Below are positions 4,097-61,728 of a DNA stretch of 64,000 bases, in pieces. The stretch is from an uncultured SAR116 cluster alpha proteobacterium. Its GTDB lineage: Bacteria; Pseudomonadota; Alphaproteobacteria; Puniceispirillales; Marisalimonadaceae. The stretch lies in contig CACJQK010000003.1 in NCBI GenBank assembly GCA_902595515.1, positions 62,001 to 126,000 of the forward strand, written 5' to 3'. Numbering within the stretch: position 1 is the stretch's first letter; each line of letters opens with the position of its first letter. The position numbers and the translations under genes are program-made. The notes beneath the pieces are model-generated. The model was not told the DNA's origin. It saw nothing but the letters and a program-made list of their open reading frames with translations, and did no database searches.

Positions 4097-7000
4097 TTAA
4101 ACAACATCTATAAGAGATTGAAACATCTCCTTAGCTGTTTGCAAAATTCGTGCCGAAGCTTGGTAAGCTTGTTGAAATTCAAGTAAATGAGCTGCTTCCT
4201 CATCAAGATTTACTCCTGCAAACTCACTTTGACTTGCCTCAGCTGCATCTAAGGTGCTAGAGGCTGAGTCCAAAGATAATTTATTTGCTTGAACATTTGA
4301 ACCTACTTTAGCGACCGTGGTATTAAATATTTCCTGGAAATTACCTTTGTTACCGCCTGATTTGTCTGACCCTTGAAGATTTAAAATATTAATTATGTTT
4401 CTGTTATCTCCAAAGCCATCCTTATTACTTGAAAAATCGAAACTATTATTTACTGTAGTGTCGTCAGAAAATTGAAATTTAGTATTATTAACTTCAAAAA
4501 CTCTATTAACATCTAGGATCCTTGATGCAATAGAATGACCAGAAATTTTATCAAAAATTTCTATTTTATTTTTGTTTGTAGCATCAACTTTAATAGTTAA
4601 TTCAGGTTCGAATTCATTACTTAAATTTTCGCTTTCAGTAAATTGATCATACTCTGCACTTATTTTCCTAGCACCACCACCCATTACAATTGTAATCAAA
4701 TCCTCTGGTGGCAGATTAGTTAAACTTATTTTTTCAGCGACTGAGTTTTGAATTGATCCGTCTGGAATGTCTACTTTTACTGGTTCTCCAGAAAAGGAGG
4801 TTACTTTTATTCCATCACTATCCACTATAGTTCTTACATCTTGGGTTTTAAGACCATAAACCTTGCTTGCATTCGGACTTGGATCAATCTTAAAATTGAG
4901 TTTATCGACTGTACAGCTTAGAGATAATCTGCCTACCTTTTTTGTACCTACTTCTGTGGTTAGCCCCGAAGCATTGAATGAACCTGCAACTGTTCTTGAA
5001 GGAACAATAGATGAAATCTGGGTAAAAACTTTTTCCCCAATAATAGTTTCACCTGCTCCATTTACGGTTAAAACTTCTGTTTGTGAATTACCAAACTGGT
5101 CTAAACCAGTAATTGTATATATGTCACCTGAGTCATTTCCTGCTGGTTTAATTGTAATAACTTGAGGTTCCATTGAAACAGAAGTTGCTTGTACACCAAC
5201 CTCAATAGTACTTACTGTATTGTTAGCAACGGAAATAGATGCAATTTCACTAAAAGAAATGGCACCAATAACAGTCGAATTGTTAACTCCTGAAATTGTT
5301 TCGGTCTTAAACACACCATCAGTATCAAGACCTGAAATTACAAATGAATTACCAATCTCGTTTCCATTACATTTTATTTTTATTTTACCGTTTAAAGCTT
5401 TTGAGTTTTTTAAAGCGCCATCAAAAATTAAATCTCCTGCTGTGGCTGATTGGGTTGTTAAGAGACCATCATCATCTGTAGTTGACAAAACACCATCAGT
5501 AATTATACCAACTCCTGCTGACACATTATCTTTAAACAAAGAATCAGGATCAGTTGTACCTGATGATTCATTCCATGTTAAAGTTATTGAAGAAGGTGGT
5601 GACCCACTAAGTGCAGATCCGTCATTATTGAAAAATACAGGAACATTATTACTGTCAAATTTAATTGTATAGTCTGTTTTAATATCATTTTCTGTAACCT
5701 CAATACCAATTGCAGGACTGGAAGTTGTTGGTTGAACAACAAAATTTCCAAGCATTTTTGTTATACCCTCTTTTAAACCAAATGTTTCAGCATTAACTGT
5801 ATTCGCAGTATTAGCAACTAATTTAAATTGAGCACCTTCAATCGTGCCTTCTGCTGATGCAATAAGTTCATATCCTGGTGCAGTCCCAATTTCTACGTTA
5901 CCTGTGGTATTAGAAGCTGGTGTAATTGAGGTAATTGTTTTAAACAGACCTTGGGACACCACAGTTTTACCAGAATTTGGACCAGAAATAGTTTCAGTTT
6001 TACTTAATCCGTCTGTGCCTGTACCAACTATTGTAAAAGAATTTTCACTTTCGTTTGATGTAGCAGTTATTGATACTCTTGTTCCTAAGGAAGAAACAAA
6101 GGCAGGTTTAGTTCCAACGTCAACTTCACCATGGTCACCGTCAACTCTCACCTCAGTAACTGTTTTAAAAACTTTAGTTCCTGTATTAGTGGCATTGTCG
6201 CCATTCACACCAGTAATTTCATCAGTAATTACATTACCATCTGGATCAGTACCTATAATAGTGAGTTTAAAAGGAGTATTGTCGTCGTTATCACGATTTT
6301 TAATTGTTATTATGGAATTTAAAGATGTACTATCCTTGAGTGCTCCATTTAGTAAAATTGGTCCTGCACTTGAAGGATTTCGAAACGCAATAATACCATC
6401 ACTGTCTGCTGCTGTAGAATTTAAACCATTAATTATTAGAGACGTAGCTGCGGTGCCAGTTTGGGACACAGCAATCAAATTGTTAATATTTTCTGAAGTT
6501 CCATTTAAGCGGGCCTTAATTCTGTTTGTTTCAGGGCCTTCTACTAATAATTCTCCTGATACCATCTTGAGTGTATAGACTTGTCCTTCAAAACTTAAAT
6601 CTACAGATTGTCCATCTTTAGGTAATGTGTTTAAAACTTTACTTTTAAGTTGAATAGTTGGTGTTTCAGATCTAAGCGATGTAAGTAGCGCTGTAGATAT
6701 TTCTTTTTGGGTATCTATATTTAGGGCATTTGCATCAATTGTAGTATTCCAATTTCCATCGGCTGCTTTTGTACCAATCTTAATTTTACCGTTATTTGTT
6801 CCAGATGAAGTTATTGATGTTACTGATTTGAAAATATTATTAGTAGTTACTACTCCACCATTTGATCCTAGTATTCTTTCTTCAATAATCTTATTATTTA
6901 AATCTAGTCCAGCTATTATGAAAGTTGTTCCAGTTGTGTCTTCCCTACTTTTTATTTGTATTTTAGCACCTAAATATTCAGATGTTGATAAAACACCATT

Positions 7001-10000
7001 CAATCCAATTGGATCGCCAGAAATAAAAGATGTTAACTGAACTAAGCTATCATCGTCATTTATTGCATTGTTGGCTGCCGTTCCAATTTTAATATTCCCA
7101 CTTGCTCTAGCTGAGGTCTCAATTTTTGTTATGGTAGCAAATTTTGTTGAACCTACCGCTGTATTGGATATCGTTCCAATTTTAATATTCCCATTTACTG
7201 TAGCTGAATTCTCAATTTTTGTTATGCTAGTAAACTTTGTTGAACCTACTGCTGTATTAGTAGCTGTTGCACCTGTAATTTGTTCTGTAATTATAGTACC
7301 ACTTGAGTTCTTTCCGGTAACTGTAAATGTATTTGCGCTTTCATCAGCGGAACAGAAAATGGTTACAACTGCATTTAGATTGTTGGCATCTTTTAAAGAT
7401 CCATTAAGTGTGATGGTACCTGGAGCACCAGGATTAGCTGAAGTAAATAAACTATTATCTTTAGTAGCTGTTGCACCTGTAATTTGTTCTGTAATAGTGG
7501 TACCACTTGAGTTAGTTCCAGTAACTGTAAATATATTTCCGCTTTCATCCGTAGAACAGAAAATGGTTACAACTGCATTTAAATCGTTGGCGTCTTTTAA
7601 CTTACCATCTAGTGTGATTGTTCCTGCATTACCAGGATTATCTGAGGTATATAAACTATCATCATCATTAACATATAATTTATAATCTCTTTGATTAAGA
7701 TCAATTCCATATTTGGATAAACCAACAACAGACTTTTTCCCATCAGGAGATCCAAGGCTATTATCTAAATTGTCAAATATTTCAGGTTTAATAGTAACAA
7801 CTTCCCCTGTTTTGCTCCTATCAATATTTATATATCCATTTGTTAGTGAATCTGTAACCGCAACATTTGAAACACCTGAATTTATTTGTGTTGTAAAAGT
7901 TTCACTTGATATAAATTTTAGTTCACCTTTAATATTGGCTGAAACTTTTTTTGTATCACTTATGTCAATTAACAATTTTGAATTTAATTGTGAATCATTT
8001 TCACTTAATTTTTCAAAATCTTTTCCTAATACTTCCAGAGTAAAATCTGAAGGAGCTTTGATGTTTTTTAAATTAATGTCGTATCCATCTTTAGATTCAA
8101 TAATTATTTTCTTAAAATCTCCAGTAACCGTTGCTGACAAACCCGTTTGAGAAGAATACTCATTTATTCTTTTTGCAAGTGCTGAAATGTCACTCGCGTC
8201 TATACTTGCATTTATTGAGACTGCTTCAGAATTTTTGCCTTTTAAATCAAATGTAACGGAACCACTAACACCATCATTAAAAGGTCCAAGTAATACTTTA
8301 GTACTTGCAGAAACATGTACTCCTGTCCCAGCTAATTCAGTATTTAATTTATTAGCTAAATAGTAAGCACTAGAACCCACAGGTACATTTGTAGTTTTTT
8401 CTATGTTATCATTACTAGTTACTTTAAGAGAATAACCAATAGCTTCTGTTCCAATAGTTACCTTGCCAGCTGAATTACCATTTATACTTATATTTCTTAC
8501 CCTACTAAACACTTTACTGCCAACAACTGTAGCTGCATTACCACCAGGTATTGTTTCAGTTTGGTACAATCCATCTAGGTCATAACCTGTAACAGTAAAT
8601 GTTCTTGATGAATCGTCTTTCTCACATGCTATTGAGATAATTGAGTTGAGCTCTTTTGAGTATATTTTTGTTCCATCTAATGTAAGAGTTCCATTAGTGA
8701 CGGTTTTTGAGGTCAATAAACCATCTATGTCTGTTTCTTGCTCATTGTAACTAAGATTTGATCCAAAACTGCTTGTAAAATCACCGTTAGCTGTTTTCCT
8801 ATTTGAGTTAATGCCTCTATAATTATTATTTAAATAATCGTTCCTGTATTCAGCACTTTCTAAAAAACCATTCTCTGTTTTTATTAATGAGGCTATTTGA
8901 GTTGCGTTAAGTGAAGTTCCTGACACATGTCTTCCATCTCTTGTAAAAATTTGTAAATTACTTGCAGTCGCTTCATCTGTTGTTAAATTTGATATAGAAG
9001 GGCTAAACGAGTTACCTCTAGATAAAATAGAAGAACTCGAAATATCTCTAGAAGAGGAGGCAATAGAAAGAAAGCCATTTGAACCAGTAGCAAACAAACC
9101 TAGTTTTCTAAAATCATGTTGACTTTTCCCATCTAGCATCAAGCCAGAGTTAAGTAGATTAGCGAATTCTTGTACAGTTTTAATACCATCTCCAGGGTCT
9201 GTGGCAGCTGAACTTATTGTGATCTCTTCATTGTTGCTTCCGTCAGTAAGTTTAATACTGAAGGATGAAAATCCTTTAATATCTGCGTCAGAAATAGTAA
9301 ATGTAGCAGATGATTGATTACCAAGAGAACTTAAATTAACAGATTTGGTAGATGAAGGAATTGTTGTTATAGGACCATCTTTTAAAAAAGATGTTGCAAC
9401 TAAAGGGTTTCCACTAGAAGTAAAAACTTTATTAAGACTTGGAGGATGATCTATTTCAGTTTGAGTTGTTGAACCTATAATATTTAATTCGACATTTCCA
9501 ACATTAGAGGCACTCTTTGAAATTAAACTTTTTGAAGCAGCTGCAAAATCTTCAGGATTTTTAAGATTAAATTTCATAGCACCAGCTTTTGTTAAAGTTG
9601 GTGATATTTGAAAGCCGTCACCATCTTTTGGCTGACCAATTATTTCAACTTGAAATCCATCAAAATTAATTTTATTTCCTGTAGCGTTAGATAGACCCTT
9701 AGAGTTCCTAATTTCCCAATTGTTATTTAGTTTTGAATAATTAACTAAGATTTTCTCTTGAATAATTTTACTTGGATCACCCTCAATTATATTAAATTTC
9801 AAATCTGCTTTGTTGCTAAAGTTAGCCTGTGGTAACATAGAATTTATAGAAAACATAGCTTTCCCAGATTTTCCATTGAGATCTATTCCAGAAGTTTGAA
9901 TTTCATTTACATTGTTAGAAAAATGTTCGGCAAGTTTACTTATCTCACTACTTACAGAATCAACTAAATTATAAAAGTTTGAAATTCCAAATATTATTCC

Positions 10001-10825
10001 TGAAGAATAAATGCCAGCTGTTTTTTTACCACCACCTTCATTTATAACTAATGTTACATTTTTATCATCTGAAGCTGAGGATATAATTGAACCTTTACTT
10101 CTATTGATTAAAAAAGCACCATTGCCTGAGTCACCCAATCTTACTATAGCTTCACCTGTATTAGCATAATCTACGGTGAAATTTAAAAGTTTTGATAAGT
10201 CTATTAACAACTTATCTCTTGCGTCTAAAACATCATTTGAGGCATCACTTGTTCCACTGGTAGCAATTAATTTATTTACTTCGACTAATTGATCTATATA
10301 TAAATTTGCTTCATTTAATTTTATGTCAATTTGCCTTAACGAGTTAGATTTAAAATTTTTAAGTTGATCATCATAACTGTTAAAAGCAGAAGCTAACGCT
10401 TTGCCTGCCTCCAACGAGACTGCTCTTGCAGAAATGCTGTCCGGATTACTTGCTACATCTTGAAGGGTATCAAAAAACCGTCCAATAAAAACACCTAAAT
10501 CGCTTCCTGAAGGTAATAACATATTTTCTAAGTCGCTTAACTTAGAAACAAAATCATTTAACATTTCATAATCAGATTGTGAGGTTCTTGTTTTATCAGC
10601 AAGATAAGCATCGAATGATCTACGAACACTAGTAACTCTCACACCTAATCCAGATTGGTCAGAAACATTCGTAGGTCCACCAGTCACACCAGCAACTTCA
10701 CTAACATCTGCTCTTCTTTTGTTATATCCATCGGTATTAATATTAGCAATGTTCTGCCCAGTCACAGACAAAGCTTGTCTATAAGCTTGAACACCAGTTT
10801 TTCCAATTTCAAATAATGAGGCCAT
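4097..10825 (-). CDS. flgK: Giant flagellar hook-associated protein FlgK (HAP1), 2242 aa
   Basis: First junction protein between hook and filament. The ends are canonical: the N-terminus has the rod/hook/HAP motif (QALSVTGQNIANINTDGYNK, residues 18-37) followed by FlgK-type sequence to about residue 340. The last 100 residues carry GVNLDEEAAHLLEFQQAYQA and the final LQTAKEMFQSLIDVV. FlgK is usually about 450-700 residues; here roughly 1700 extra residues lie between the ends. The insert contains many imperfect repeats of the form TFTVTGxDxxGxxxTExITG...G...F..IT.I..S....G.I.IGT, spread over about 5000-8700. Two DNA-level tandem duplications sit at 7080-7265 and 7260-7667. The frame is open throughout. 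Its start overlaps the flgJ stop as TAATG, implying translational coupling. Confidence 0.93.
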   Translation of the reverse strand: MASLFEIGKTGVQAYRQALSVTGQNIANINTDGYNKRRADVSEVAGVTGGPTNVSDQSGLGVRVTSVRRSFDAYLADKTRTSQSDYEMLNDFVSKLSDLENMLLPSGSDLGVFIGRFFDTLQDVASNPDSISARAVSLEAGKALASAFNSYDDQLKNFKSNSLRQIDIKLNEANLYIDQLVEVNKLIATSGTSDASNDVLDARDKLLIDLSKLLNFTVDYANTGEAIVRLGDSGNGAFLINRSKGSIISSASDDKNVTLVINEGGGKKTAGIYSSGIIFGISNFYNLVDSVSSEISKLAEHFSNNVNEIQTSGIDLNGKSGKAMFSINSMLPQANFSNKADLKFNIIEGDPSKIIQEKILVNYSKLNNNWEIRNSKGLSNATGNKINFDGFQVEIIGQPKDGDGFQISPTLTKAGAMKFNLKNPEDFAAASKSLISKSASNVGNVELNIIGSTTQTEIDHPPSLNKVFTSSGNPLVATSFLKDGPITTIPSSTKSVNLSSLGNQSSATFTISDADIKGFSSFSIKLTDGSNNEEITISSAATDPGDGIKTVQEFANLLNSGLMLDGKSQHDFRKLGLFATGSNGFLSIASSSRDISSSSILSRGNSFSPSISNLTTDEATASNLQIFTRDGRHVSGTSLNATQIASLIKTENGFLESAEYRNDYLNNNYRGINSNRKTANGDFTSSFGSNLSYNEQETDIDGLLTSKTVTNGTLTLDGTKIYSKELNSIISIACEKDDSSRTFTVTGYDLDGLYQTETIPGGNAATVVGSKVFSRVRNISINGNSAGKVTIGTEAIGYSLKVTSNDNIEKTTNVPVGSSAYYLANKLNTELAGTGVHVSASTKVLLGPFNDGVSGSVTFDLKGKNSEAVSINASIDASDISALAKRINEYSSQTGLSATVTGDFKKIIIESKDGYDINLKNIKAPSDFTLEVLGKDFEKLSENDSQLNSKLLIDISDTKKVSANIKGELKFISSETFTTQINSGVSNVAVTDSLTNGYINIDRSKTGEVVTIKPEIFDNLDNSLGSPDGKKSVVGLSKYGIDLNQRDYKLYVNDDDSLYTSDNPGNAGTITLDGKLKDANDLNAVVTIFCSTDESGNIFTVTGTNSSGTTITEQITGATATKDNSLFTSANPGAPGTITLNGSLKDANNLNAVVTIFCSADESANTFTVTGKNSSGTIITEQITGATATNTAVGSTKFTSITKIENSATVNGNIKIGTISNTAVGSTKFATITKIETSARASGNIKIGTAANNAINDDDSLVQLTSFISGDPIGLNGVLSTSEYLGAKIQIKSREDTTGTTFIIAGLDLNNKIIEERILGSNGGVVTTNNIFKSVTSITSSGTNNGKIKIGTKAADGNWNTTIDANALNIDTQKEISTALLTSLRSETPTIQLKSKVLNTLPKDGQSVDLSFEGQVYTLKMVSGELLVEGPETNRIKARLNGTSENINNLIAVSQTGTAATSLIINGLNSTAADSDGIIAFRNPSSAGPILLNGALKDSTSLNSIITIKNRDNDDNTPFKLTIIGTDPDGNVITDEITGVNGDNATNTGTKVFKTVTEVRVDGDHGEVDVGTKPAFVSSLGTRVSITATSNESENSFTIVGTGTDGLSKTETISGPNSGKTVVSQGLFKTITSITPASNTTGNVEIGTAPGYELIASAEGTIEGAQFKLVANTANTVNAETFGLKEGITKMLGNFVVQPTTSSPAIGIEVTENDIKTDYTIKFDSNNVPVFFNNDGSALSGSPPSSITLTWNESSGTTDPDSLFKDNVSAGVGIITDGVLSTTDDDGLLTTQSATAGDLIFDGALKNSKALNGKIKIKCNGNEIGNSFVISGLDTDGVFKTETISGVNNSTVIGAISFSEIASISVANNTVSTIEVGVQATSVSMEPQVITIKPAGNDSGDIYTITGLDQFGNSQTEVLTVNGAGETIIGEKVFTQISSIVPSRTVAGSFNASGLTTEVGTKKVGRLSLSCTVDKLNFKIDPSPNASKVYGLKTQDVRTIVDSDGIKVTSFSGEPVKVDIPDGSIQNSVAEKISLTNLPPEDLITIVMGGGARKISAEYDQFTESENLSNEFEPELTIKVDATNKNKIEIFDKISGHSIASRILDVNRVFEVNNTKFQFSDDTTVNNSFDFSSNKDGFGDNRNIINILNLQGSDKSGGNKGNFQEIFNTTVAKVGSNVQANKLSLDSASSTLDAAEASQSEFAGVNLDEEAAHLLEFQQAYQASARILQTAKEMFQSLIDVV
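7080..7265 (-). repeat. 93-bp tandem duplication inside flgK
   Basis: Two adjacent copies (7080-7172 and 7173-7265) of a 93-bp unit, 31 codons each, differ at only a minority of positions. Both start GTTCCAATTTTAATATTCCC on the plus strand. The encoded unit reads approximately NTAVGSTKF.TITKIE.SA...GNIKIGT. The length is a multiple of three, so the frame is kept. High DNA similarity points to a recent duplication. Confidence 0.85.
7260..7667 (-). repeat. 204-bp tandem duplication inside flgK
   Basis: Two consecutive 204-bp copies (7260-7463 and 7464-7667), 68 codons each. Each begins GTAGCTGTTGCACCTGTAAT on the plus strand and encodes a module of the form GTITL.G.LKDAN.LNAVVTIFCS.DES.N.FTVTG.NSSGT.ITEQITGATAT. 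They are the closest pair within a longer degenerate array in the giant FlgK insert. The period is a multiple of three, so the frame stays open. Confidence 0.85.
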
Positions 10826-11168: not shown

Positions 11169-12293
11169 TTAAATTATAATCATTTGTGCTCTTAGAGCAC
11201 CAGCTGCTCTCAAAGCTTCTAATATTGCGACTAAATCAGCACTTGTGGTTCCAATTGCGTTAATTGCATCAACAACATCAGCTAAGGAGGTACCTGCGTC
11301 AAAAACAAAAGCTGATGCTGTTTCTGCACCTGCCTGTATATCGGTATCATTTTCAGTATTCGCTGCGGTTTGTTGTGTTATGTTTCCTGCGTCATCAAAT
11401 AGTGTTTGACCTGGTGTAGTATTAGTGTCTTCATTTACTTTTACAGTTAAACTACCATGACTTACTGCAGCAGGCGTTACTCTAACATCACCTCCTATAA
11501 CAATCGTTCCTGTTCTTGCATTTACAACAACTCTTGCAATTGGTGATGCAGGATCGACCTCAATATTTTCTAATAAACTCATAAAACTTACTTTCTGGGA
11601 GGGATCTTTAGGAGCTCTTACAGAAATTGATGTGTGATCAAGCGCTTTTGCTACATCAGGACCAAATACTTTATTAATTTCTTCAGTAATTCTATTAGCA
11701 GTTGTAAAGTCTCCTTGATGAAGGTTCATTACAAAATTTTCAGAATTAATGAATGGTGCTTCTACCATTCTCTCAACAGTCGCGCCATTTGAAATTGTAC
11801 CAACAGTTGGGATGTTTACTGACATGGAAGACCCATCAGCACCTTCAACACCAAAGCCACCTACCGCAAGATTGCCTTGAGCGATAGCATATGTTTTACC
11901 ATCAGCACCTTTCAATGGTGTCATCAAGAGTGTGCCTCCTCTTAAACTTTTAGCTTTTCCCATTGAAGAAACTGTAACACCAATTTTTTGACCTACTTTT
12001 GTAAAAGGATCTAAGTCTGCAGTAATCATCACTGCTGCTGAATTTTTTCCACTTAAACTACTTGCATCTACATTCATTCCGAATTGTGAAATTGTTGATT
12101 GCATACTTTGAAGTGTAACTGCGAGTGATGAGTCACCAGTTCCATCTAAGCCTACAACAATTCCATAACCCATTAATTGGTTAGATCTAATTCCAGCAAA
12201 GCTAACCATATCTTTTAATCTATCTGCAAAAACAGTCTCCACAATTGTTGAGAAAAGAAAAATAAACAAAAAATGGATTTTAAAATTTTTCAT
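11169..12293 (-). CDS. flgI: Flagellar P-ring protein FlgI
   Basis: Periplasmic ring protein around the distal rod, 374 residues from ATG 12293. This start gives a clean Sec signal peptide of about 23 residues (hydrophobic [15 protein letters not shown] then DRLKDMVSF) and has AAGGA 8 bases upstream. A longer frame to 12344 overlaps flgH and is unlikely. Family motifs include [19 protein letters not shown] near the mature N-terminus and the C-terminal [18 protein letters not shown]. It follows flgH directly, the usual order. Confidence 0.95.
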
Positions 12294-12304
12294 AATTGAA
12301 TTCC

Positions 12305-12967
12305 TTAAAATGGTGAAATTGCTCTTAAAAGATTGCTTCCCCACCCTGGTTTTGTTGCACTATCTAATATCCCTGCACCTACATATTCAATTTGAGCTTC
12401 AGCAATTTTTGATGATGAAACAGTATTAGTTGTTGATATATCTTCTGGCCTTATAATCCCACTAAGTCGAATATATTCAGTTCCCTCAGTGATTCTTAAT
12501 TTCTTTTGTCCTTTAATTTCTAAGTTACCGTTTGGAAAAACTCTTACTATTGTAGCTGAAACAGTTCCACTCAAACTATTTGACTGATTTGTAGCCATTG
12601 AACCAGAAAAAGAGTCAGTCTTTGAAATTGCGCCTCCAAAAGAACCGGCTAAGTTCATTACACCTACTCCGCCAACTTGTGCACCAATAGCATCCGCCTT
12701 TGCAGAAGAGTTAGTCACAGCCTTATTAGATGAAAATGTTTCGCTTAGAGTAACTGATAAAATATCTCCAACTTTTTTTGCTCTTCTATCTGAAGAAAAA
12801 AGTCCTGAAGAACTTGTACTGTATATAGAACCATTCGATGGTTCTGCTCTTTCGAATTCTTCAAATGACGGTCTTAATGGCTTAAATTGTTGATTATTAG
12901 TTTCTTCAACATAAGTTGAACAACCAGTTAATATTAAAAAAGTTATAAAAATAAATAATCTGTTCAT
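12305..12967 (-). CDS. flgH: Flagellar L-ring lipoprotein FlgH
   Basis: Outer-membrane ring of the basal body, 220 residues. A lipobox ending LTGC gives lipidation at Cys16. The body contains [20 protein letters not shown] and [20 protein letters not shown] followed by [11 protein letters not shown], all characteristic of FlgH. It lies 15 bases after flgG and 11 bases before flgI, in one transcript with them, and should pair with FlgI to make the LP ring through which the rod passes. Confidence 0.95.
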
Positions 12968-12982
12968 TTTAAACTCTAAAAT

Positions 12983-13768
12983 CTAAAGATTTTGGCTAAT
13001 GAATCTCAGCATATCATCCACACCAGAAATTGCTTTCGAGTTAACTTCATATGCTCTTTGTGTTTCAATCATATCAACCAATTCTTGAACAACATTAACA
13101 TTTGAACTTTCAAGTGCACCTTGTACTAAACTTCCAAATCCATTTTCAAATGGGTTAGCTATAACAGCTGGACCACTTGCAGGTGTTTCAACTAACATTG
13201 ATTGTCCAATAGGTTGCAAACCTCTTGAATTAGCAAAATCTGCTAACTGAAATTGTCCAACTTCTTCTGCTTCTACCTCTCCTGGATTTTGAACTGACAC
13301 AATTCCGTCAGCTGAAACGTTAATGTTTGTTACTCCTTCAGGAATAGCAATCTCAGGCTGAATAACATAACCAGAAGCTGTTGTTAGTAAACCTTCTGCA
13401 TTTCTTCCAAAAGCACCATTTCTAGTAAACCCAATTCTTCCATCTGGCATTAAAACTTGAAAAAATCCAGACCCATCTATTGAAATATCTAATGCATTAT
13501 CTGTGGACACAATGTTACCTTGTGTAAAAAGTTTATCCGCATTTATAATACGTACACCTGTTCCAACAGAAAAAGCAGAATTAGTTCTTGTCTCACCAGA
13601 TGTTTGGGCACCTGATGCTTTTATTACTTGATATAATAATGTTTCAAAATTTGCTCTATCTCTTTTAAAACCTGTAGTATTTACGTTTGCAAGATTGTTT
13701 GCAATTACTTGCATTCTACTATTTTGAGCATTTAAACCTGTTTTGGCAACGTGCATTGCATTAGACAT
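12983..13768 (-). CDS. flgG: Flagellar distal rod protein FlgG
   Basis: Distal rod subunit of 261 residues, normal size. The N-terminus has the rod/hook motif (QVIANNLANVNTTGFKRDRA, residues 20-39) and the C-terminus the FlgG-type ending (ESSNVNVVEELVDMIETQRA, then NSKAISGVDDMLRFISQNL). An AAGGAG ribosome site lies just upstream. A sigma-54 type promoter sits 33-50 bases upstream of the start (13801-13818), so flgG probably begins its own transcript running through flgL. Confidence 0.96.
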   Translation of the reverse strand: MSNAMHVAKTGLNAQNSRMQVIANNLANVNTTGFKRDRANFETLLYQVIKASGAQTSGETRTNSAFSVGTGVRIINADKLFTQGNIVSTDNALDISIDGSGFFQVLMPDGRIGFTRNGAFGRNAEGLLTTASGYVIQPEIAIPEGVTNINVSADGIVSVQNPGEVEAEEVGQFQLADFANSRGLQPIGQSMLVETPASGPAVIANPFENGFGSLVQGALESSNVNVVQELVDMIETQRAYEVNSKAISGVDDMLRFISQNL

Positions 13769-13800
13769 ATTCTACTCCTTTTTATGAATATAGAATAATA

Positions 13801-13818
13801 ATGCAATTGATATGCCAA
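13801..13818 (-). promoter_or_regulatory. Sigma-54 type promoter upstream of flgG
   Basis: On the minus strand the sequence is TTGGCATATCAATTGCAT. GG and GC are separated by exactly 10 bases, as in the -24/-12 consensus TGGCAC-N5-TTGC. It lies just upstream of flgG with room for a transcription start and the ribosome site. Assignment is by pattern only. Confidence 0.75.
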
Positions 13819-13833
13819 TATCTCAGAGAATTT

Positions 13834-14586
13834 TTAGCTTGGCATTCTCATTAAAGAAGCACTAGCCTCGTCTATTTCTTGGGCAGTGCTGATAAACTTA
13901 ACATTTATTTCATAGGCCCTTGATTGATCTATACCAGTTACTAGTTCATCTACTGACCTAACGTTAGACCCTTCTAAAAATCCACTTAATAATAAAGTTC
14001 TATTATCTGGAGCTGGAATTGTCCCATCTACAGGTCTAACAAAACCATCTATAGTTTTTCCTAAGGGTACTTCTGATCCAAAAGTAGTTGCAAGTTGACC
14101 AACCCTTACTGTTTGACCAAGTGGAGCATTTAGAGGCTCAATTTCAATAATTCCGTCACCAGAGATTGAAATTTTTCTATGTGGTGGAATAGTGATAGGT
14201 TCTAAATCCACACTTAAAGGCTGAGTTCCCGTTCCATCTCTTAATGTTCCATCAGCGGAAACGGTAAAATCACCACGTCTTGATAGTGCTGTTTTACCGT
14301 TTTCAGGTTTAACTATGAAATAACCATATCCGTCAACAGCAAGGTCTAGTGGTGCTCCTGTTTGTTGCATTGGTCCAGGAGTGGAATCAAATCCACCTGG
14401 CTCCTGCAATGCCATAACTCTTGGGTCTATACCCTTATCTCTATCTAAATACACGGAAGCAAAGTTAATTTGAATATCTTTTTGAAAACCCGTAACACTT
14501 ATGTTTGCTAGGTTTTGAGCTGTTACAGATTGATTATCTCTTAATATATTCATACTATTAAGAGCTGTATAAATACTTCTATCCAT
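13834..14586 (-). CDS. flgF: Flagellar proximal rod protein FlgF
   Basis: Rod protein of 250 residues. The N-terminal motif QSVTAQNLANISVTGFQKDI (about residues 19-38) and C-terminal SNVRSVDELVTGIDQSRAYE define the rod/hook family. The position between flgE and flgG and the length match FlgF. It follows flgE by 29 bases, so it is likely the last gene of the flgBCDEF run before the flgG promoter. Confidence 0.93.
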   Translation of the reverse strand: MDRSIYTALNSMNILRDNQSVTAQNLANISVTGFQKDIQINFASVYLDRDKGIDPRVMALQEPGGFDSTPGPMQQTGAPLDLAVDGYGYFIVKPENGKTALSRRGDFTVSADGTLRDGTGTQPLSVDLEPITIPPHRKISISGDGIIEIEPLNAPLGQTVRVGQLATTFGSEVPLGKTIDGFVRPVDGTIPAPDNRTLLLSGFLEGSNVRSVDELVTGIDQSRAYEINVKFISTAQEIDEASASLMRMPS

Positions 14587-14615: not shown

Positions 14616-17600
14616 TTATGTTCTAATTTGAATAATAGCCTGTGTTAGACTTGTATTAGTCTCTATTGTCTTAGCGTTAGCTTGGAAGTTTCTTTGAGCA
14701 GTAATCAAGTTTACCAACTCTTCAGTAATATCAACGTTTGATCTTTCTAAAGAACCAGACAAGATTGTTCCATAACCATCTGCTCCAGCCTCTCCAACTG
14801 CAGCAACACCCGAAACCGAAGTTTCAACGTATGTTGCGTTACCAATTTGTTTCAAACCGTTTTGGTTGTTAAAATTAACCATAACCAATCTTCCAAGAGC
14901 TATGTTTAAGCCATTAGTATAGTTAGCACTAACTAATCCGTTAGCGGCAATATCTAAACCATCTAACTTACCGACTGTTTGTCCGTCTTGAGTTACAGTT
15001 CTAACATTAAAATCAGATGCAAATTGCGTTGATCCGTCAAAATCCAAATCTAAATCGATAGATAAGGCATTGGTTCCTGCTGCTGCGTCTGCCGCAAAGT
15101 CACCTTTATAATTCACTTTTTGTGTTGGACTTACTAAGTTACCTTGAGTATCAAAGGTTAATTCACCAGGTCTTAAAAACACCTTTGCAAATGTACCATC
15201 TGTTGTTGGTGTCCAAGCGTTATCAGGTGCAAGAGTTGTCGTAGTGCCTGCATCATTAACATACAAAGATTGACCTGTATCTGATTTAGCAATTGTATTT
15301 GCCATATTAACAAATGATGGTGTAGTTCCTGTTTGTAGTTCAAGATCATCTAATCCCATTCGAGCACTTGCAGAAACGAATATTTTACTATTTAACCCAG
15401 TAGTTCCAGTAGTAAATGTAAATGAGTTGCTAGTTGTATTATATACAACAGTTACACCATTGACAGTATTACCTGAAGAATCTTCCATTTGATTTATTCT
15501 TGACTGCAAAGCGGTTGCAAGAGAAGTTCCATTATAAACACCTTCAGGTACCTTAATAGCCGCTGTTATGTCATTGACGTTTACAACAAAAATTGTCTCT
15601 TCGGCAGCATCTGATAAAAAGAAATCTTCGGACAAGTCTTCATTTGACGTTTTTCCATTTAAAACAGCCGCTTCGGATTGCAGACCTTTTCCAGATGTGT
15701 CAGCGGTGACTGTAGTAATTCCGTTAGTGGCATTTATTCCTAGCAATGCACTTGTTCCACCAATACCTGCTGCAGATGCTGTTGCAACACCATCTACAAT
15801 TGCCAATCTTCCAATTTCTATATTTGATGAGGCTTGACCAGCATCTCCAACACCAACAGCAGAATTTGCTGGAATATTTTCTCCAGTTGTTCCACTAGCA
15901 ATACTAAATTTTCTAGTGAGGTTGTTGTATGAGACTTCTACGCCAAAAGCTTGTTGTGTGTCTGCAGCTATTTGATCACCAGTGAATAAAACTGATTCAG
16001 CTTTCAAAACTGCACCACCTCCAATATTTGATGAAGCCTTATTACTCAATGTTTTAAGACCTATAGCATTAGCTGCATTACCCTCACCAGGACCATATGC
16101 GGAAAATGAAAACATCTTACTTGATGTAGATGTACCAATTTTTGAAGGAATACCTTGTAAAGTAAAATTTTGTCCTGAAATATCATAAGCAATTCTTAAA
16201 GCAGGATCGTCTTCATCAACCCAATCGTCTGTACTACCTATATCTTGTGTTACCACTGCGTCTACTTTATGCTCTACAGCAGTAGTGCCAGCAACTCCTC
16301 TTGTTATTCCAGTAAAAGTAGTAGCAGTTTTTCCTGTATATGAAACAATTTCATTTCCAATCTTTAGGAAACCATTATCTTCAAAATCCGCTGTTGTATC
16401 TACTGTTAAAGTTGTGTCTGTAGCTGAAAAAGCATTTGATCCACCAATATCAGTAGTTCTTTGTGCTAAACCTAAGTTTACTACACTATCAAACAAACTT
16501 ATTGCGGTGTTGACAGGTACTGCCTTACTTTCACTGTTTTCTGCACCTCTTGTAATACCAGTTAGTGTTGTAGCTGTTTTACCAGTGTAAGTAATTATTT
16601 CGTTACCAAGCTTGAACTTACCAGGAGCAGCTTCAGTTGCATCTGTAAATCCAGCTGTTGATCCAACTGTCAAACTTTCTGAGTCAGCTGGTAAAAATAA
16701 TATTGGTGTATTTGCATCTATTTGAGCTGTCGTTGCAGCACTTATTGTAATATCAGTACCACTTATAGCGGTGACAGTTGTGCCAGCTGTTACACCTGCG
16801 ACTTCAACCACATCACCAACTTGGATGTTTGTATTAGCTGCAACAGTTAATGTTGTAGTTCCTAGAGCTGCATTACCACCATTTTGTTTAGTTGCAACAC
16901 CAAGTCCTTCATTATCAACAAAATTCAATTCATCTCCAAATATCCCTGATGGTGCTGATCCTCCACTATCTCCTGAAGCTAAAATATTTGCATTAATTGT
17001 TACAGATGTTCCTGATACAGCTGTAACATATGCACCTGACGCTATGTTTCTTCCATATACAAGATCACCTTCTGATATGTTAGTAGCATCTGCTACTGTT
17101 ATGACTTTTTGACCTGAAGCACCCGTCCCAGATGTGTGAGCACTAGCTAAAAAAGCTATTTTATCACCAGCTGTAGTTGCGGTTGCTGGAGCAAGAGCCA
17201 AAGTGTTACTACTATTAGATAGAGTTATTACAGATGTATCGTGGTTTACTTGAGTAACTCTAGTTCCTGCTGTAAATCCTTTGGCAACAACTAAGTCTCC
17301 TACCCTTATACCTTTAGTACCACCTTCAACCTCAAGAGTATTATCGTTTACACCTAATGTCCCAGTTTTTTCATAAATTACATTTGTTCCAAGTATATCT
17401 GCAGCGGCAGTATAACCATTGGCATCTGCAGTTCCACCAGCTATTGATCTAGTTGTTGGTACTGAGCTTAAAGTAGTGTTTCTAAGTATGTCTTTAAAAC
17501 CACTCATTATACCATCAGTAAAAGTTAATAATCTAATGGAAGCGTCATCAGCATGAATCGCAGCTGCTGTGCTATTTGCACCTCTAATGATACCAGTGAA

Positions 17601-19841
17601 ACTTGTTGATGTTTTACCTGTGTATGTAATTTGCTCTGTTCCAATTAGTAAAGTTCCTGAAGTTGGAAATCCAGCTGTGGTATCAACAACTAACACATCA
17701 TTAGGGCTAGCTTCACCTGAGTTTGGTTGAGAAGCACTAATACCACCAGTTTTATTTAAAAGAGTATTAGGTTGCTTAACATCTTTATTTAAATATGAAT
17801 GCTTATTAAGTTCCTTTAACACAATGCGGTTGCTACCAAAATGTTCAGTCTGCCCAGAAAAAACATCAGTGCCACCCTCAAATTTTGCTGAAATATCTTT
17901 TGATTCCGAATAAAGAACTTTAATTTTTGTATCAGTAATATTAATTGCAGCCGTTGAGTCAGACTTTAAGTTTAAGAATTCATTGCCATTTGCATCAGTT
18001 CCAGCGCTAGACACAGAAAATTTGGCACCGTTATATTTTAAATTATTGACATTTGATGTTGTAGTATCAAATTCACCAGCTAAAAACACTTCAGTTGGAA
18101 AGCTTGTTGAACTAATAGTATTTGTTGTGTCATCAATGTATACTTTTAATGTACCACTTGCATCTTGAACCATTGTATTACCACTAACTGCAGTAACATC
18201 TACAGCTTTATCAAAAACTTTTAAAGTTGGTGAAGAATTATAATAACTATGCAAAAGAAATTTTTCTTCAGTAGTTACATTATTTTCGTCAGTTAAATCT
18301 GTTGTAGGATGTTTATAATTAAAACTTAAAACTTCAGTTTCTTTTATTGCGCCATTTAAGGCTTTTCCAGTAACCCTATTGAATAATTGAGAACTAACAC
18401 CATAGGTTGAAGAGCTATTAGTGTTTCCATCTGCTGACACGGCAGCCCTATTCAGTGCATCATTTATTCTAAGTTGAGCATGAGCTAAAAATTCTTCTCT
18501 AGTGAAGTTTGGTGACGCAACATTTTCAATTCCATTTGTAGCTGAAAAAATCTTTTCAGTAACAAAACTATCTTTCATTAAATCAACATTAATAGCAGAT
18601 AAAGTCTGAATTTCATCATTATTGTCAAGTTGGTTAAATTGAATTGAAAAACTTCCGTCAGTTACGGGATCAATTGCTAACTTTGCATCATCTGATAATC
18701 CTGCATTTATGGCTCTTTGAACTTCTGATGCAAGAGTAGTCGCTGTATAAGTACCTGGTCTTATATCAATACTTTTGAAACTCGCACTACCAGTGGTATC
18801 ATCTACACGAACTGTCAAAAAGTCTTTACCCCAATATGTAGATTTATTTAAAGTAGGGTTAGCCTCATAAGTTGTGTAGTATTGTAAAGGGTCAGTAACC
18901 ACAGTTATTGAAGGAGCTGTTGCAGTAAAAGCAGCATCCTCTAAAACTGTTGATTCAACTGTTGCTGCTTTAGAGACAGTTTTATTTGATAAATCATCTA
19001 AGAAAAACAATGGTTGAGTCTGAGCAACAGAAATAATTTGTGGCTTTTCATTAATTGGAATTATTTGTCCAAAACGGTCAACAACCAATGTCTGTCCAGT
19101 TGGAGAAATAGCTTCTGTCAAAGAAGGTTGAACTTCCCTACCATCAACAATAAATTTAGTTTGATATTTATGTGTTACGTTATCTCCAGATGCAGCTTGA
19201 GTTTTAATAAAAAAAGCAGTTGCAATTACTGGATTACCTAAATTATCAAATATTGTAACAGAAGTTGATGAGTTAAATGTTGCAGGATTTTTGGGGTCAA
19301 AATCTGCCGCTGAATCAAAAACCGTTGATGAAGCTGGTAAATTAACAGCCAATTCAAGATTATCTGTTTTCTTAGCTTCACCTGCTTCTAACTCTAACTT
19401 TAATGGTTTTGCATCAACAATTTCACCACCTTGGACAGATCCATCATCAGACACAGGTAATGCAAGAACAAACTGACCGGCTGAGTCAACAACAAATCTA
19501 TCGTTGTTAACTGAAAATGAACCATTTCTAGTATAAACTGTCTGGTTTGTAGTTAATGAAGGTTTTAGTGCAAAGAAACCCTGTCCTGATATAGCCATAT
19601 CCAAAGCATTAAGGGATGAAGATACGTTTCCTTGGGTAAATTGTTGTTTAATACCTTTCAAAATTGTTCCTGATCCAATAGATGATGATGCATTTTGGAG
19701 AGGAGAAGTAGCAAAAATATCACCAAATTCAGCTTTACTTCTTTTGTATCCTGTTGTTGCGACGTTAGCGATATTATTTGAGGTAGCTGAAATATCTGCC
19801 TGTGATCCGTTAAGTCCTGTAAGAGCGGTGTAAAATGACAT
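14616..19841 (-). CDS. flgE: Giant flagellar hook protein FlgE, 1741 aa
   Basis: Subunit of the flagellar hook. The N-terminal 150 residues are ordinary FlgE (DISATSNNIANVATTGYKRS, residues 16-35; ALDMAISGQGFFALKPS). The C-terminus is also ordinary (GTILSGSLERSNVDITEELV then NLITAQRNFQANAKTIETNT). FlgE is normally about 400 residues, so roughly 1300 extra residues sit in the surface domains. The insert includes three modules with (I/L)G.E.I.YTGKT.T..TGI.RG (near 16290-16380, 16545-16625, 17575-17660) and three with GD.V....I..G..VT.VSGT..TI (near 16735-16830, 16970-17075, 17210-17310). I associate such modules with phage structural proteins and adhesins. It directly follows flgD. The frame is intact across 5.2 kb. 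Confidence 0.93.
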   Translation of the reverse strand: MSFYTALTGLNGSQADISATSNNIANVATTGYKRSKAEFGDIFATSPLQNASSSIGSGTILKGIKQQFTQGNVSSSLNALDMAISGQGFFALKPSLTTNQTVYTRNGSFSVNNDRFVVDSAGQFVLALPVSDDGSVQGGEIVDAKPLKLELEAGEAKKTDNLELAVNLPASSTVFDSAADFDPKNPATFNSSTSVTIFDNLGNPVIATAFFIKTQAASGDNVTHKYQTKFIVDGREVQPSLTEAISPTGQTLVVDRFGQIIPINEKPQIISVAQTQPLFFLDDLSNKTVSKAATVESTVLEDAAFTATAPSITVVTDPLQYYTTYEANPTLNKSTYWGKDFLTVRVDDTTGSASFKSIDIRPGTYTATTLASEVQRAINAGLSDDAKLAIDPVTDGSFSIQFNQLDNNDEIQTLSAINVDLMKDSFVTEKIFSATNGIENVASPNFTREEFLAHAQLRINDALNRAAVSADGNTNSSSTYGVSSQLFNRVTGKALNGAIKETEVLSFNYKHPTTDLTDENNVTTEEKFLLHSYYNSSPTLKVFDKAVDVTAVSGNTMVQDASGTLKVYIDDTTNTISSTSFPTEVFLAGEFDTTTSNVNNLKYNGAKFSVSSAGTDANGNEFLNLKSDSTAAINITDTKIKVLYSESKDISAKFEGGTDVFSGQTEHFGSNRIVLKELNKHSYLNKDVKQPNTLLNKTGGISASQPNSGEASPNDVLVVDTTAGFPTSGTLLIGTEQITYTGKTSTSFTGIIRGANSTAAAIHADDASIRLLTFTDGIMSGFKDILRNTTLSSVPTTRSIAGGTADANGYTAAADILGTNVIYEKTGTLGVNDNTLEVEGGTKGIRVGDLVVAKGFTAGTRVTQVNHDTSVITLSNSSNTLALAPATATTAGDKIAFLASAHTSGTGASGQKVITVADATNISEGDLVYGRNIASGAYVTAVSGTSVTINANILASGDSGGSAPSGIFGDELNFVDNEGLGVATKQNGGNAALGTTTLTVAANTNIQVGDVVEVAGVTAGTTVTAISGTDITISAATTAQIDANTPILFLPADSESLTVGSTAGFTDATEAAPGKFKLGNEIITYTGKTATTLTGITRGAENSESKAVPVNTAISLFDSVVNLGLAQRTTDIGGSNAFSATDTTLTVDTTADFEDNGFLKIGNEIVSYTGKTATTFTGITRGVAGTTAVEHKVDAVVTQDIGSTDDWVDEDDPALRIAYDISGQNFTLQGIPSKIGTSTSSKMFSFSAYGPGEGNAANAIGLKTLSNKASSNIGGGAVLKAESVLFTGDQIAADTQQAFGVEVSYNNLTRKFSIASGTTGENIPANSAVGVGDAGQASSNIEIGRLAIVDGVATASAAGIGGTSALLGINATNGITTVTADTSGKGLQSEAAVLNGKTSNEDLSEDFFLSDAAEETIFVVNVNDITAAIKVPEGVYNGTSLATALQSRINQMEDSSGNTVNGVTVVYNTTSNSFTFTTGTTGLNSKIFVSASARMGLDDLELQTGTTPSFVNMANTIAKSDTGQSLYVNDAGTTTTLAPDNAWTPTTDGTFAKVFLRPGELTFDTQGNLVSPTQKVNYKGDFAADAAAGTNALSIDLDLDFDGSTQFASDFNVRTVTQDGQTVGKLDGLDIAANGLVSANYTNGLNIALGRLVMVNFNNQNGLKQIGNATYVETSVSGVAAVGEAGADGYGTILSGSLERSNVDITEELVNLITAQRNFQANAKTIETNTSLTQAIIQIRT
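16290..17660 (-). repeat. Degenerate virion/adhesin-like modules inside flgE
   Basis: Two intermixed repeat types in the giant hook protein. Type A carries the core GNEI.(S/T)YTGKTATT.TGITRG and occurs three times. Type B carries GD.V....(I/V)..GT.VTA(V/I)SGT..TI.A and also occurs three times. Copies are diverged at DNA level, unlike the flgK duplications. Family association is from memory of such motifs in tail proteins. Confidence 0.65.
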
Positions 19842-19874: not shown

Positions 19875-20567
19875 TTAATTTTTAAATCTTACAACTTGGG
19901 AAGGATCAATTGTTCCATAATCCTCAACCTCTAACATTACTCCTGTTTCAGTTTTCGATGTACCTGAAACATTAGCGAAAACCTGTGTTGGCAATTCACC
20001 AGTATCACCTTTGTTACCAGTAAAAGCCCTTATTACTATTGGAGTACCTGATTTTAAAATATCATCTGGTAGGTCCTTCCATTCGAAACCTACTAATCCT
20101 GCCTTTTGCATTCCTAATGTATCTTGATGTAAAACCTCACCTTCACTATTTTCAAAAATTATATTTAGATTTGACGCAGTATCAGGTAAATCTACAACAC
20201 CACTTATAACACCCTCTTTGTCGGGTCTAGCAAACTTTCCAGGTATTAAAACGGAATGTCCCATCAATTGAGTTGTCGAAGCAATTCTCATTTCTGATAA
20301 CTGCTGGCTTACAGACTTCATAGTTTGATCCATTGAGGTAATGCCTGTGACTGTTGAAAATTGTGCCATTTGAGCTATAAAATCAGCGTTGTCAACTGGT
20401 GCAAAAGGATCCTGGTTTTGTAATTGCGTTGTCATTAATTTTAAAAAATCTTCTTGTCCAAGTTGATCTTTAGTCTCTTTGGGTGCAAACTTTTCTTTAG
20501 AAGAATTTATTCCTAATTTATCTAAAATCTTAGTAAGAGATTGATTTGATGAATTAATTTCTGACAT
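19875..20567 (-). CDS. flgD: Hook-capping protein FlgD
   Basis: Scaffold cap needed to polymerise FlgE, 230 residues. The N-terminal part has the conserved GQEDFLKLMTTQLQNQDPFA (about residues 37-56) followed by PVDNADFIAQMAQFSTVTGI; the C-terminal half is the beta-rich domain (GVISGVVDLPDTASNLNIIF). It lies between flgC and flgE, 9 bases after flgC. Its size is normal although its client hook protein is four times the normal size, which implies the cap contacts only the conserved FlgE core. Confidence 0.94.
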   Translation of the reverse strand: MSEINSSNQSLTKILDKLGINSSKEKFAPKETKDQLGQEDFLKLMTTQLQNQDPFAPVDNADFIAQMAQFSTVTGITSMDQTMKSVSQQLSEMRIASTTQLMGHSVLIPGKFARPDKEGVISGVVDLPDTASNLNIIFENSEGEVLHQDTLGMQKAGLVGFEWKDLPDDILKSGTPIVIRAFTGNKGDTGELPTQVFANVSGTSKTETGVMLEVEDYGTIDPSQVVRFKN

Positions 20568-31430: not shown

Positions 31431-32234
31431 TTACCGGTCAATCAATCTTTTTGTTACATCAACTTCTGTTTGAAGAAGTCTGGAAACTCCCGAAAATGCC
31501 TGCTGTGCTTTAAGCATAGTTATCATTTCTGAAGTAATATCAACATTTGATCTTTCTAAGTTACCTGCTTCAATTTTACCAAATGCTCCATTCATTGGAA
31601 TACCATAATTTGGCAATCCTGATTTTATATTAGTTTGATAACGATTATTACCAACTTGTTTTAATCCAGTTTCATTAGGAAATGATGCAAGAACAAAATT
31701 TCCGATTACTACTTCATCATCTAGTCCGTAAGTAGCTGTAATTTTACCATTTGAACTAACATTTATATTTGAAATCATAGATGTGGTTTGATCTTCATTT
31801 ACTCTTCTTGGAGGTATGACTATATTTTTTAAAACTGTATTATCCTGACCAAGATAACCCATTACTTTTAATCCATCATTTGTAACAACTTCACCTTTTG
31901 AAGAAATATCAAATGAACCATCTCTAGTAAAAAAAGGAGTTTCTAACATTTTTTCGTTTACAACTGAAAAAAATCCCAAACCTGTTATAGCTAAATCTAA
32001 AGCACCATTTGTTGTTTTAAGGGAACCTTGGCTCATTTGTAAGATTGGATCATTTACACCTACTCCCTGACCGGAAAATTTATTAGAAGATGAGGATCTA
32101 TCTCTAGAATATATATGCTGAAAATTAGTCTTGCTTTTTTTAAATGCTGTACTATTAACATTTGCAATATTATTAGAAACAATTCCCAATTCTTTTGTAT
32201 TTGCGTTAAATGCACTTTTTAAAATTGATAGCAT
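31431..32234 (-). CDS. Second, short FlgE/FlgG-like hook or rod protein
   Basis: 267 residues with the rod/hook N-terminus (LGIVSNNIANVNSTAFKKSK, residues 16-35) and ALDLAITGLGFFSVV. The C-terminus (EAGNLERSNVDITSEMITML then KAQQAFSGVSRLLQTEVDVT) is closer to FlgE than to FlgG, which has N.V.ELV.MI. Its size equals FlgG, and FlgE, FlgF and FlgG are all present elsewhere, so this is an extra axial protein. It stands alone on the minus strand with its own sigma-54 type promoter. Candidates are an alternative hook, a rod-hook adaptor or a hook-length component. Confidence 0.8.
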   Translation of the reverse strand: MLSILKSAFNANTKELGIVSNNIANVNSTAFKKSKTNFQHIYSRDRSSSSNKFSGQGVGVNDPILQMSQGSLKTTNGALDLAITGLGFFSVVNEKMLETPFFTRDGSFDISSKGEVVTNDGLKVMGYLGQDNTVLKNIVIPPRRVNEDQTTSMISNINVSSNGKITATYGLDDEVVIGNFVLASFPNETGLKQVGNNRYQTNIKSGLPNYGIPMNGAFGKIEAGNLERSNVDITSEMITMLKAQQAFSGVSRLLQTEVDVTKRLIDR

Positions 32235-58575: not shown

Positions 58576-59382
58576 ATGTTAAATAAGACAACCTTTCAAA
58601 GAGCTCACGGTAAAATTGATGTTAAAATAAATAATAATGAAATAAATCGCTTCTATCAATCAGGTTCTACAAAAGTATTTTACCCTAAATCTTTTCAAAA
58701 ATTTAAAGAGTTAGTTTTAGTCAATACTGCTGGTGGGATTACAAGTGGTGATAATTTTTCTTATGATTTTGAAATTGTAAATAAATCCAAAATTTTTTTA
58801 ACTACGCAAACTGCAGAAAGAGCTTATAAGGGATTTAGTGAAAAGGCTAAAATTAAAATCTCTTTGACAGTAGATGACACAAGTAATCTTTTTTGGATAC
58901 CACAAGAATTAATTTTATTTAACAATTGTAATTTTGATAGAAACATTGAAGTAAATTTAGGTCCTAATTCAAATTTTGTATTAGCTGAAACTACAATATT
59001 TGGAAGAACAGCTATGGATGAATATCTTGAAAAAGGTTATTTCAATGATAATTGGAGAATAAATGTAAATAAAAATTTGATTCACGCTGAAGCATTAAAT
59101 TTAAATGGAAATATTAGAGAAACTCTCTCAAATATTGCTTCAGCTAAGGATGGAGTTGCAATATCTAATATTTTTATCTACGGAAAAAAACTATTATCTT
59201 ATGAGAATACTTTACCTGAAATTCTAAGAAACTCAGAAACAGTATTGTTGTCTCATTCTATATGGAATGATAAAATTTTAGTCAGAATGGTTGCCAAAGA
59301 TGCTTATGATTTGAAATCAATACAAAAAAATTTAATATCAATACTTGCTGATGATAACATACCAAAAGTATGGAACAGTTAG
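58576..59382 (+). CDS. ureD: Urease accessory protein UreD
   Basis: 268 residues. VLVNTAGGITSGDNFSYDFE (about 50-69) and TTQTAERAYKGFSEKAKIKI are UreD hallmarks, with FILAETTIFGRTAMDE-like sequence nearby. UreD works with UreF and UreG to insert nickel into apourease. It is the first gene of the urease run; GAAGGG is the nearest purine-rich patch upstream, at a long spacing. Confidence 0.93.
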   Translation: MLNKTTFQRAHGKIDVKINNNEINRFYQSGSTKVFYPKSFQKFKELVLVNTAGGITSGDNFSYDFEIVNKSKIFLTTQTAERAYKGFSEKAKIKISLTVDDTSNLFWIPQELILFNNCNFDRNIEVNLGPNSNFVLAETTIFGRTAMDEYLEKGYFNDNWRINVNKNLIHAEALNLNGNIRETLSNIASAKDGVAISNIFIYGKKLLSYENTLPEILRNSETVLLSHSIWNDKILVRMVAKDAYDLKSIQKNLISILADDNIPKVWNS

Positions 59383-59391
59383 GGAGAGAAC

Positions 59392-59694
59392 ATGAAATTA
59401 TCACCTAGAGAAAAAGATAAACTCTTAATTAGCTTAGCTGCAATAGTTGCAAGAAATAGAAAAAGTAGAGGAATTAAACTTAACTATCCTGAGGCTATAG
59501 CTTTAATTTCAGATTTTGTTGTTGAAGGAGCTAGAGAAGGACGCACCGTTGCAGACTTAATGGAAGCTGGTGCTCATGTTGTAAAAAAGGATGAATGTAT
59601 GAGTGGGATTCCTGAAATGATACATGAAGTTCAAGTTGAAGCCACATTTCCCGATGGCACAAAATTAGTCACAGTTCATCATCCTATAAGATAA
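59392..59694 (+). CDS. ureA: Urease gamma subunit UreA
   Basis: 100 residues, exactly the normal size. [40 protein letters not shown] and [20 protein letters not shown] match. Structural subunit in the trimeric enzyme; the frame is full length and separate from UreB (no fusion). GGGAGAG lies upstream. Confidence 0.98.
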
Positions 59695-59705
59695 TGGAGA
59701 TTTAA

Positions 59706-61720: not shown

Positions 61721-61728
61721 AGAAAATA

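Follow-up and report, generated by a model that had tools for sequence, protein, structure and literature searches.

A giant flagellar hook protein in SAR116 marine bacteria, with a conserved inserted shell and a hypervariable, virion-like apex

The window, a 64,000-nucleotide stretch of DNA from a SAR116 alphaproteobacterium, encodes a flagellar hook protein, FlgE, of 1741 residues; in marine SAR116 and some of their relatives, the hook protein is two to four times the usual size. The reading that we prefer, to which we give a probability of roughly 60%, is that this is a true hook protein forming a thick, shell-reinforced joint with an exposed, swappable apex coat, and that the external parts of the flagellum have been thickened together. 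The apex, a genus-specific virion-like coat, is the most surprising feature of the protein. The first-pass annotation of this DNA gave no strand for flgE, which lies on the minus strand, and overlooked the giant FlgK, the large flagellins and FliD, the two-tier insert and the phage-virion-type apex modules. The features are listed here by position in the window.

4097–10825, minus strand: flgK, giant hook-filament junction protein, 2242 aa (Pfam, NCBIfam, repeat search)
14616–19841, minus strand: flgE, giant hook protein, 1741 aa (open reading frame and domain matches; kept in genus and order)
14619–14921, minus strand: FlgE residues 1641–1741, D1/D0 C-terminal hook core (Flg_bbr_C; alignment)
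14982–15212, minus strand: FlgE residues 1544–1620, second half of D2 (PF07559 positions 66–141)
15213–16229, minus strand: FlgE residues 1205–1543, conserved shell, C-terminal half (alignment, orthologues, orthologue model)
15306–15659, minus strand: FlgE residues 1395–1512, domain common to the organism's FliD, whose fold resembles those of phage sheath and flagellin outer domains (profile and fold search)
16230–17771, minus strand: FlgE residues 691–1204, hypervariable apex, window's genus only (alignment, dN/dS, module search, model)
16248–16403, minus strand: apex repeat 3, folds like phage capsid, baseplate and tail-tip domains (module search)
16512–16667, minus strand: apex repeat 2 (module search)
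17532–17687, minus strand: apex repeat 1, EITYTGKT module (module search; PHROG matches)
17772–18971, minus strand: FlgE residues 291–690, conserved shell, N-terminal half (alignment; folded in the orthologue's predicted model)
18522–18839, minus strand: FlgE residues 335–440, weak FliD/flagellin-type motif (hhalign)
18972–19340, minus strand: FlgE residues 168–290, first half of D2 (Pfam FlgE_D2)
19452–19841, minus strand: FlgE residues 1–130, D0/D1 N-terminal hook core (Pfam Flg_bb_rod, LlgE_F_G_D1)
19875–20567, minus strand: flgD, hook cap, 230 aa, normal size (Pfam)

The gene begins with ATG and encodes an acidic protein of 180.7 kDa with a pI of 4.5, in which Thr, Ala, Gly and Ser are abundant. 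It contains no cysteine, as expected for an exported axial protein. Pfam identifies Flg_bb_rod at residues 3–33 (1.5e-5) and LlgE_F_G_D1 at 83–127 (3.9e-11), both above cut-off, and Flg_bbr_C at 1695–1739 (8e-16), in agreement with the earlier description of a canonical N- and C-terminal core. FlgE_D2 (PF07559) is matched in two halves, at 168–290 and approximately 1544–1620 (5e-17). These halves flank the extra residues, and the insert of approximately 1250 residues (previously put at about 1300) therefore sits inside D2, outside the core as had been proposed. The FlgEFG subfamily model TIGR03506 scores 268.7 bits against a cut-off of 70.25. The NCBIfam FlgE equivalog models fall below their cut-offs (at best 371 vs 472 and 355 vs 400 bits); the insert splits the match to them, so this lowers only those memberships, and the identification as FlgE stands on the core, the D2 domain and the gene order, with flgE between flgD and flgF. 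The nearest solved relatives are FlgE proteins. Flagellin_N and Flagellin_C were absent from the protein in the Pfam search, both being present in separate genes, and no enzyme family was matched.

Comparison of FlgE lengths across relatives, which had been proposed as a check, found giants throughout the genus and in other genera of the order. Full-length orthologues of 1546–1747 residues occur in approximately 30 other genomes of the window's genus, and those of the order's other genera, single-contig genomes among them, measure 1261–1576 residues; proteins with the conserved shell and no apex (1244–1576 residues) occur in SAR116, HIMB59-like, PS1 and some Rhodobacterales. In the genus and its relatives within the order, the genes around giant flgE are always arranged flgD-E-F-G-H-I-(J)-K-L. 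The same gene class is present in more than 100 contigs, assembled independently from single cells, metagenomes and isolates, among them single-contig genomes and a complete plasmid, and the shell in at least 152 genome contigs, from SAR116, HIMB59/MED-G10-like bacteria, PS1, several Rhodobacteraceae and the cultured Nereida ignava CECT 5292. On these sequences we consider the lineage-wide giant FlgE to be genuine. A few shell records are labelled Halieaceae and may be misbinned. The plasmid pOA238_118 of the cultured Octadecabacter arcticus 238 encodes a FlgE of 1410 residues, with the accession WP_015497676.1, and a FlgK of 1436; its giant flgE (NC_020909.1, 65333–69565) is annotated merely as a hook-basal body complex protein. 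In a survey of alphaproteobacteria, 148 of 288 genomes had a FlgE_D2 match; the frames listed were mostly 400–650 residues long, with more than 1000 residues in at least 11 genomes. Among the matches listed for a sample of 249 genomes from the phylum, no other frame exceeded 799 residues. In the single-cell genome SCGC AAA015-N04, the giant flgE is broken by two stops into frames of 404 and 1160 aa, which represents either a pseudogene or a sequencing error.

In a tree of the core, 42 giant FlgE sequences form one clade (support 100/97), with three giants of family f68 (1065–1244 residues) standing apart, which appear from this tree to be a second, independent origin of giant FlgE. The near-identity of the core in SAR116 and Roseobacteraceae, together with the plasmid copy, suggests that the flagellar cluster has spread horizontally between them, in agreement with a report that fla2 and fla3 clusters have been transferred in Rhodobacterales (PMC12363192).

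Conservation was analyzed in an alignment of 27 giant FlgEs, as identity per 40-residue block. Residues 1–690 and 1205–1741 are present in nearly all of them; residues 691–1204 are largely limited to the window's genus and are variable even there. Per block, identity to other genera is mostly 67–93% in the core and 20–65% in the shell; residues 1–120 are 82–93% identical across the order, and the C-terminal half of the shell is approximately 38–42% identical across orders. Pairwise dN/dS is 0.00–0.017 in the core, 0.014–0.080 in the shell (within the genus) and 0.115–0.446 in the apex. Constraint on FlgE thus weakens outward, from core to shell to apex, a gradient that fits the surface-exposed, variable D3/D4 domains of Campylobacter jejuni (PMC5097172), although the apex sequence could be relaxed rather than useful. 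As dN/dS is far below 1 everywhere, we conclude that the whole length of the protein is translated and maintained; with the orthologues in independent assemblies, this bears out the earlier view that the frame is intact and the gene real.

The shell comprises residues of approximately 290–690 and 1205–1543, or approximately 1000 residues when both halves of D2 are counted, and no Pfam family above cut-off covers it. Its structure was predicted using AlphaFold2 for a 1261-residue SAR116 orthologue, from an alignment of 42 rows. The shell has pLDDT values mostly of 75–93; values are below 50 in the conserved core, whose aligned sequences differ little, and because D0/D1 of the model are of low confidence, the outward placement of the insert rests on homology. 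A Foldseek search of the shell model against the PDB found no solved structure resembling the whole shell (top rows TM <0.15), and a second fold search matched two domains only. One, at approximately 1385–1510, resembles the sheath domain of phages E217 and Pa193 (Z 9.6–10.5 over 111–113 residues, 20–23% identity), V. cholerae flagellin (Z 8.6–8.8) and H. pylori FliD (Z 7.6), and a profile of residues 1395–1512 matches the organism's own FliD at 435–513 (iE 6e-7). A possible second copy of this domain at 335–440 is weak, with an hhalign probability of 75–78 over 25–28 columns only. The other is a barrel-like domain near 535–650, whose matches to an endosialidase stalk, UBA6 and EF-Tu were dismissed, being at Z of approximately 8 or less and of a common arrangement. 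The giant-specific shell was not detected in viral contigs at the sensitivity used.

The apex (residues 691–1204) contains, within the genus, 3–5 copies of a module of 50–65 residues (EITYTGKT..FTGITRG), which is found in every complete member of the genus and in 0 of 39 other giant FlgEs, and also in the FlgK of several species. PHROG families of baseplate wedge, tail fibre and virion structural proteins match it (phrog_22827, 6e-23; phrog_2885, 3e-18; phrog_708, 2e-15), and the module occurs in at least 535 viral contigs (IMG/VR), where its carriers include virion structural and tail fibre/collar proteins. The apex is modelled as a chain of small β domains, with pLDDT of 80–95 across most of the ordered part. 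Parts of the model resemble phage decoration, baseplate, tail-tip and tailspike domains, with 70–76 residues aligned in each: the matches include the Mystique tail tube (Z 10.4), VP1 capsid (9.9), JBD30 baseplate (9.7), phage Chi tail tip (9.7), GP4 portal-tail (9.6) and LKA1 tailspike (8.9), and 83 viral models are matched at E up to 1e-3. Foldseek alone gave no match of the apex to the PDB below 1e-3. A tblastn search against phage records found no match even at E of 10, most likely through masking of the apex as low complexity; the profile, fold and IMG/VR searches found the module in phages where tblastn missed it. On a tree of the shell, five short-apex sequences form a clade that, with full support, branches from among long-apex relatives, so that turnover of the apex is uncoupled from the shell; with types defined by apex length, at least two changes of type are needed. 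One relative (G042) has no apex, and carries instead approximately 330 extra residues inserted elsewhere in the shell, near the position of residue 515 in the window's FlgE.

The remaining proteins of the flagellum fall largely into two groups. The rod proteins FlgB, C, F and G, the ring proteins FlgH and I, and FlgJ, FlgD, FliK (457 aa), FlhA (705 aa) and FlhB all have ordinary lengths, in line with the first-pass annotation of the FlgD cap and export proteins as normal. Its statement that the flanking flg genes are normal in size holds for FlgB, C, D, F, G, H, I, J and L and fails for FlgK. The enlarged proteins (FlgE, FlgK, the flagellins and FliD) all lie outside the outer membrane; FlgL, also external, is an exception at a near-normal 426 aa. 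The three large flagellins (1010, approximately 770 and 664 aa) and an 875-residue FliD are encoded at G000:C3 42498–49565 (L070, L071), just past the left end of the window. A repeat (FTVTGTD..G...TE.ITG) is present in approximately 8–10 copies in FlgK, two in FliD and three in each of two flagellins, and was not found in FlgE. FlgK ranges from 1128 to 2472 residues across carriers of giant FlgE, and its length is correlated with that of FlgE (Spearman 0.46, p 0.01, n=30, uncorrected for relatedness). Genes of the MotA/ExbB family are present.

On the reading that we prefer, FlgE would polymerize through its ordinary D0/D1 core beneath the normal FlgD cap, once a rod of normal size has grown through the P and L rings, with the D2 insert of approximately 1250 residues pointing outward. 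The shell would then supply extra outer domains that contact neighboring subunits, stiffening and strengthening the joint in the manner of Campylobacter D3/D4. In C. jejuni these domains, inserted in D2, form outer rings that add contacts and strengthen the hook, and the variable parts are surface-exposed (PMC5097172); a Salmonella chimera with C. jejuni D3-D4 builds functional, thicker hooks (PMC5069557). The apex would form a solvent-exposed coat of phage-virion-type β modules that are gained, lost and swapped, its likely role being to alter what grazers, phages or particles encounter on the hook. Hook, FlgK, filament and cap would have thickened jointly. A thicker hook, as had been proposed, is what the hooks of Campylobacter and of the Salmonella chimera would lead one to expect by analogy (PMC5069557, PMC5097172); the adhesive, sheath-like or protective functions suggested alongside it are speculative. 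From subunit volume we estimate a thickness of approximately 37–44 nm, assuming a rise of 4.1 Å per subunit and a packing of 0.35–0.50, around the values for known hooks.

Several other accounts of the insert bear on the apex, and adhesion or escape from phages and grazers at the apex is compatible with reinforcement by the shell. The apex may be an escape coat, its variation driven by flagellum-binding phages or grazers as in the variable outer domains of flagellins. We regard this as a tentative proposal with a real minority chance of being right: the highest dN/dS and the modular turnover are at the predicted tip, and the types of apex do not follow the branching of the shell tree; against this, average dN/dS is still below 1, relaxed constraint would yield a similar gradient, and no flagellotropic phage of the group is linked to the apex. 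A related and slightly more doubtful proposal is that the hook is clothed in virion-type modules shared with or derived from phages, as recombination-swapped cassettes on a near-invariant hook, making a variable outer coat on which phage attachment, grazing or adhesion at the hook would depend. It is rather unlikely that the insert serves chiefly for adhesion or receptor binding, as a coat by which the hook attaches to particles, algae or prey, the apex modules binding surface glycans. The baseplate wedge, tail fibre and virion structural families, the tail fibre/collar and structural carriers in viral contigs, the tailspike and tail-tip folds and the presence of the module in some FlgKs are all consistent with such a role; however, these modules also serve virions as structural spacers, no binding site was identified, and the shell occurs in many lineages without the apex, so that attachment by the apex cannot explain giant size generally.

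The two remaining accounts deny the extra length a function or an existence. Neutral bloat in a dispensable surface region, with only the core needed, would be in keeping with the tolerance of the insert to change, the approximately 330 residues added at another site in G042 and the absence of the apex from other genera. It is improbable in small streamlined genomes, and the 38–42% identity of the C-terminal half of the shell across orders and the within-genus shell dN/dS of 0.01–0.08 argue against it; we consider it very unlikely. An artefact, whether an assembly error, a gene fusion or cleavage of the product to the usual FlgE length, finds some encouragement in the gene broken by two stops in one single-cell genome, and assembly error had been named as the result that would overturn the finding. 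As an assembly error or a fusion it is contradicted by the same gene class in closed genomes and on the plasmid of a cultured strain, by more than 100 independently assembled contigs and by purifying selection along the entire protein. An artefact of assembly or frame was accordingly rejected on the orthologues and dN/dS, and the chance of any of these artefacts is very slight, although the sequence itself leaves room for cleavage.

A search of open-access papers found no published giant FlgE. To our knowledge, the 865-residue FlgE of C. jejuni is the largest hook protein of known structure. It has been termed one of the longest hook proteins (PMC5069557), and shares with the window's FlgE the core, a large D2 insert and a variable outermost part, with a hook that is wider, at 28 nm (PMC5097172, PMC5069557); however, it is half the size and no phage-type repeats are reported in it. 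Using phmmer, C. jejuni FlgE (5jxl) aligns with the core only, the best stretch being 1559–1740 on the D2/D1 side; no stretch of the insert aligned, and no sequence relation to D3/D4 was found. C. jejuni D3/D4 are absent from the shell's fold-match lists, which is not evidence that they differ, and the epsilon FlgE model scores far below cut-off. The FlgE of Caulobacter crescentus is also alphaproteobacterial with an extra outer domain (D3; 24.5 nm hook; PMC5069557), but is approximately one third of the length, and flgE_Caulobact (NCBIfam) gives 121 vs 750 bits on the window's protein. The giant flagellins of Bermanella and Oleibacter (PMC6248924) are likewise marine, with an outer-domain insert in an axial protein and a thicker structure, but belong to the filament and to another family; the window's organism has its own 1010-residue flagellin. 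The phage EITYTGKT-type β module (PHROG 22827, 2885, 708, 4406, 11439) matches the apex repeats by sequence and fold, but is found there in virions and here in a hook protein, as though virion decoration modules had been reused on a bacterial motility organelle. The likeness of residues 1395–1512 to FliD (by sequence) and to flagellin and the E217/Pa193 sheath (by fold, Z 8.6–10.5) covers only one shell domain, embedded in FlgE.

A whole marine clade has hook proteins of 1240–1750 residues, compared with the 865 of C. jejuni, whose extra domains make a stronger and wider hook. It may therefore be on small plankton swimming in the open ocean that flagellar universal joints reach their greatest size. 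With giant FlgE it becomes possible to test what thickness still allows a hook to bend, and whether the diameters of hook, junction and filament evolve jointly.

Some neighboring genes were also noted. At 31431–32234 on the minus strand is an extra 267-residue FlgE/F/G-like protein, additional to FlgE, FlgF and FlgG and kept in relatives; it is closest to the FlgE/FlgEFG models and lacks D2. Near the flagellin genes, L071 encodes TPR/glycosyltransferase-like proteins at 4762–7020 and 11704–13839 (minus strand), whose presence there suggests that the filament or hook may be glycosylated. A urease gene cluster occupies the right end of the window, at 58576–63426 on the plus strand.
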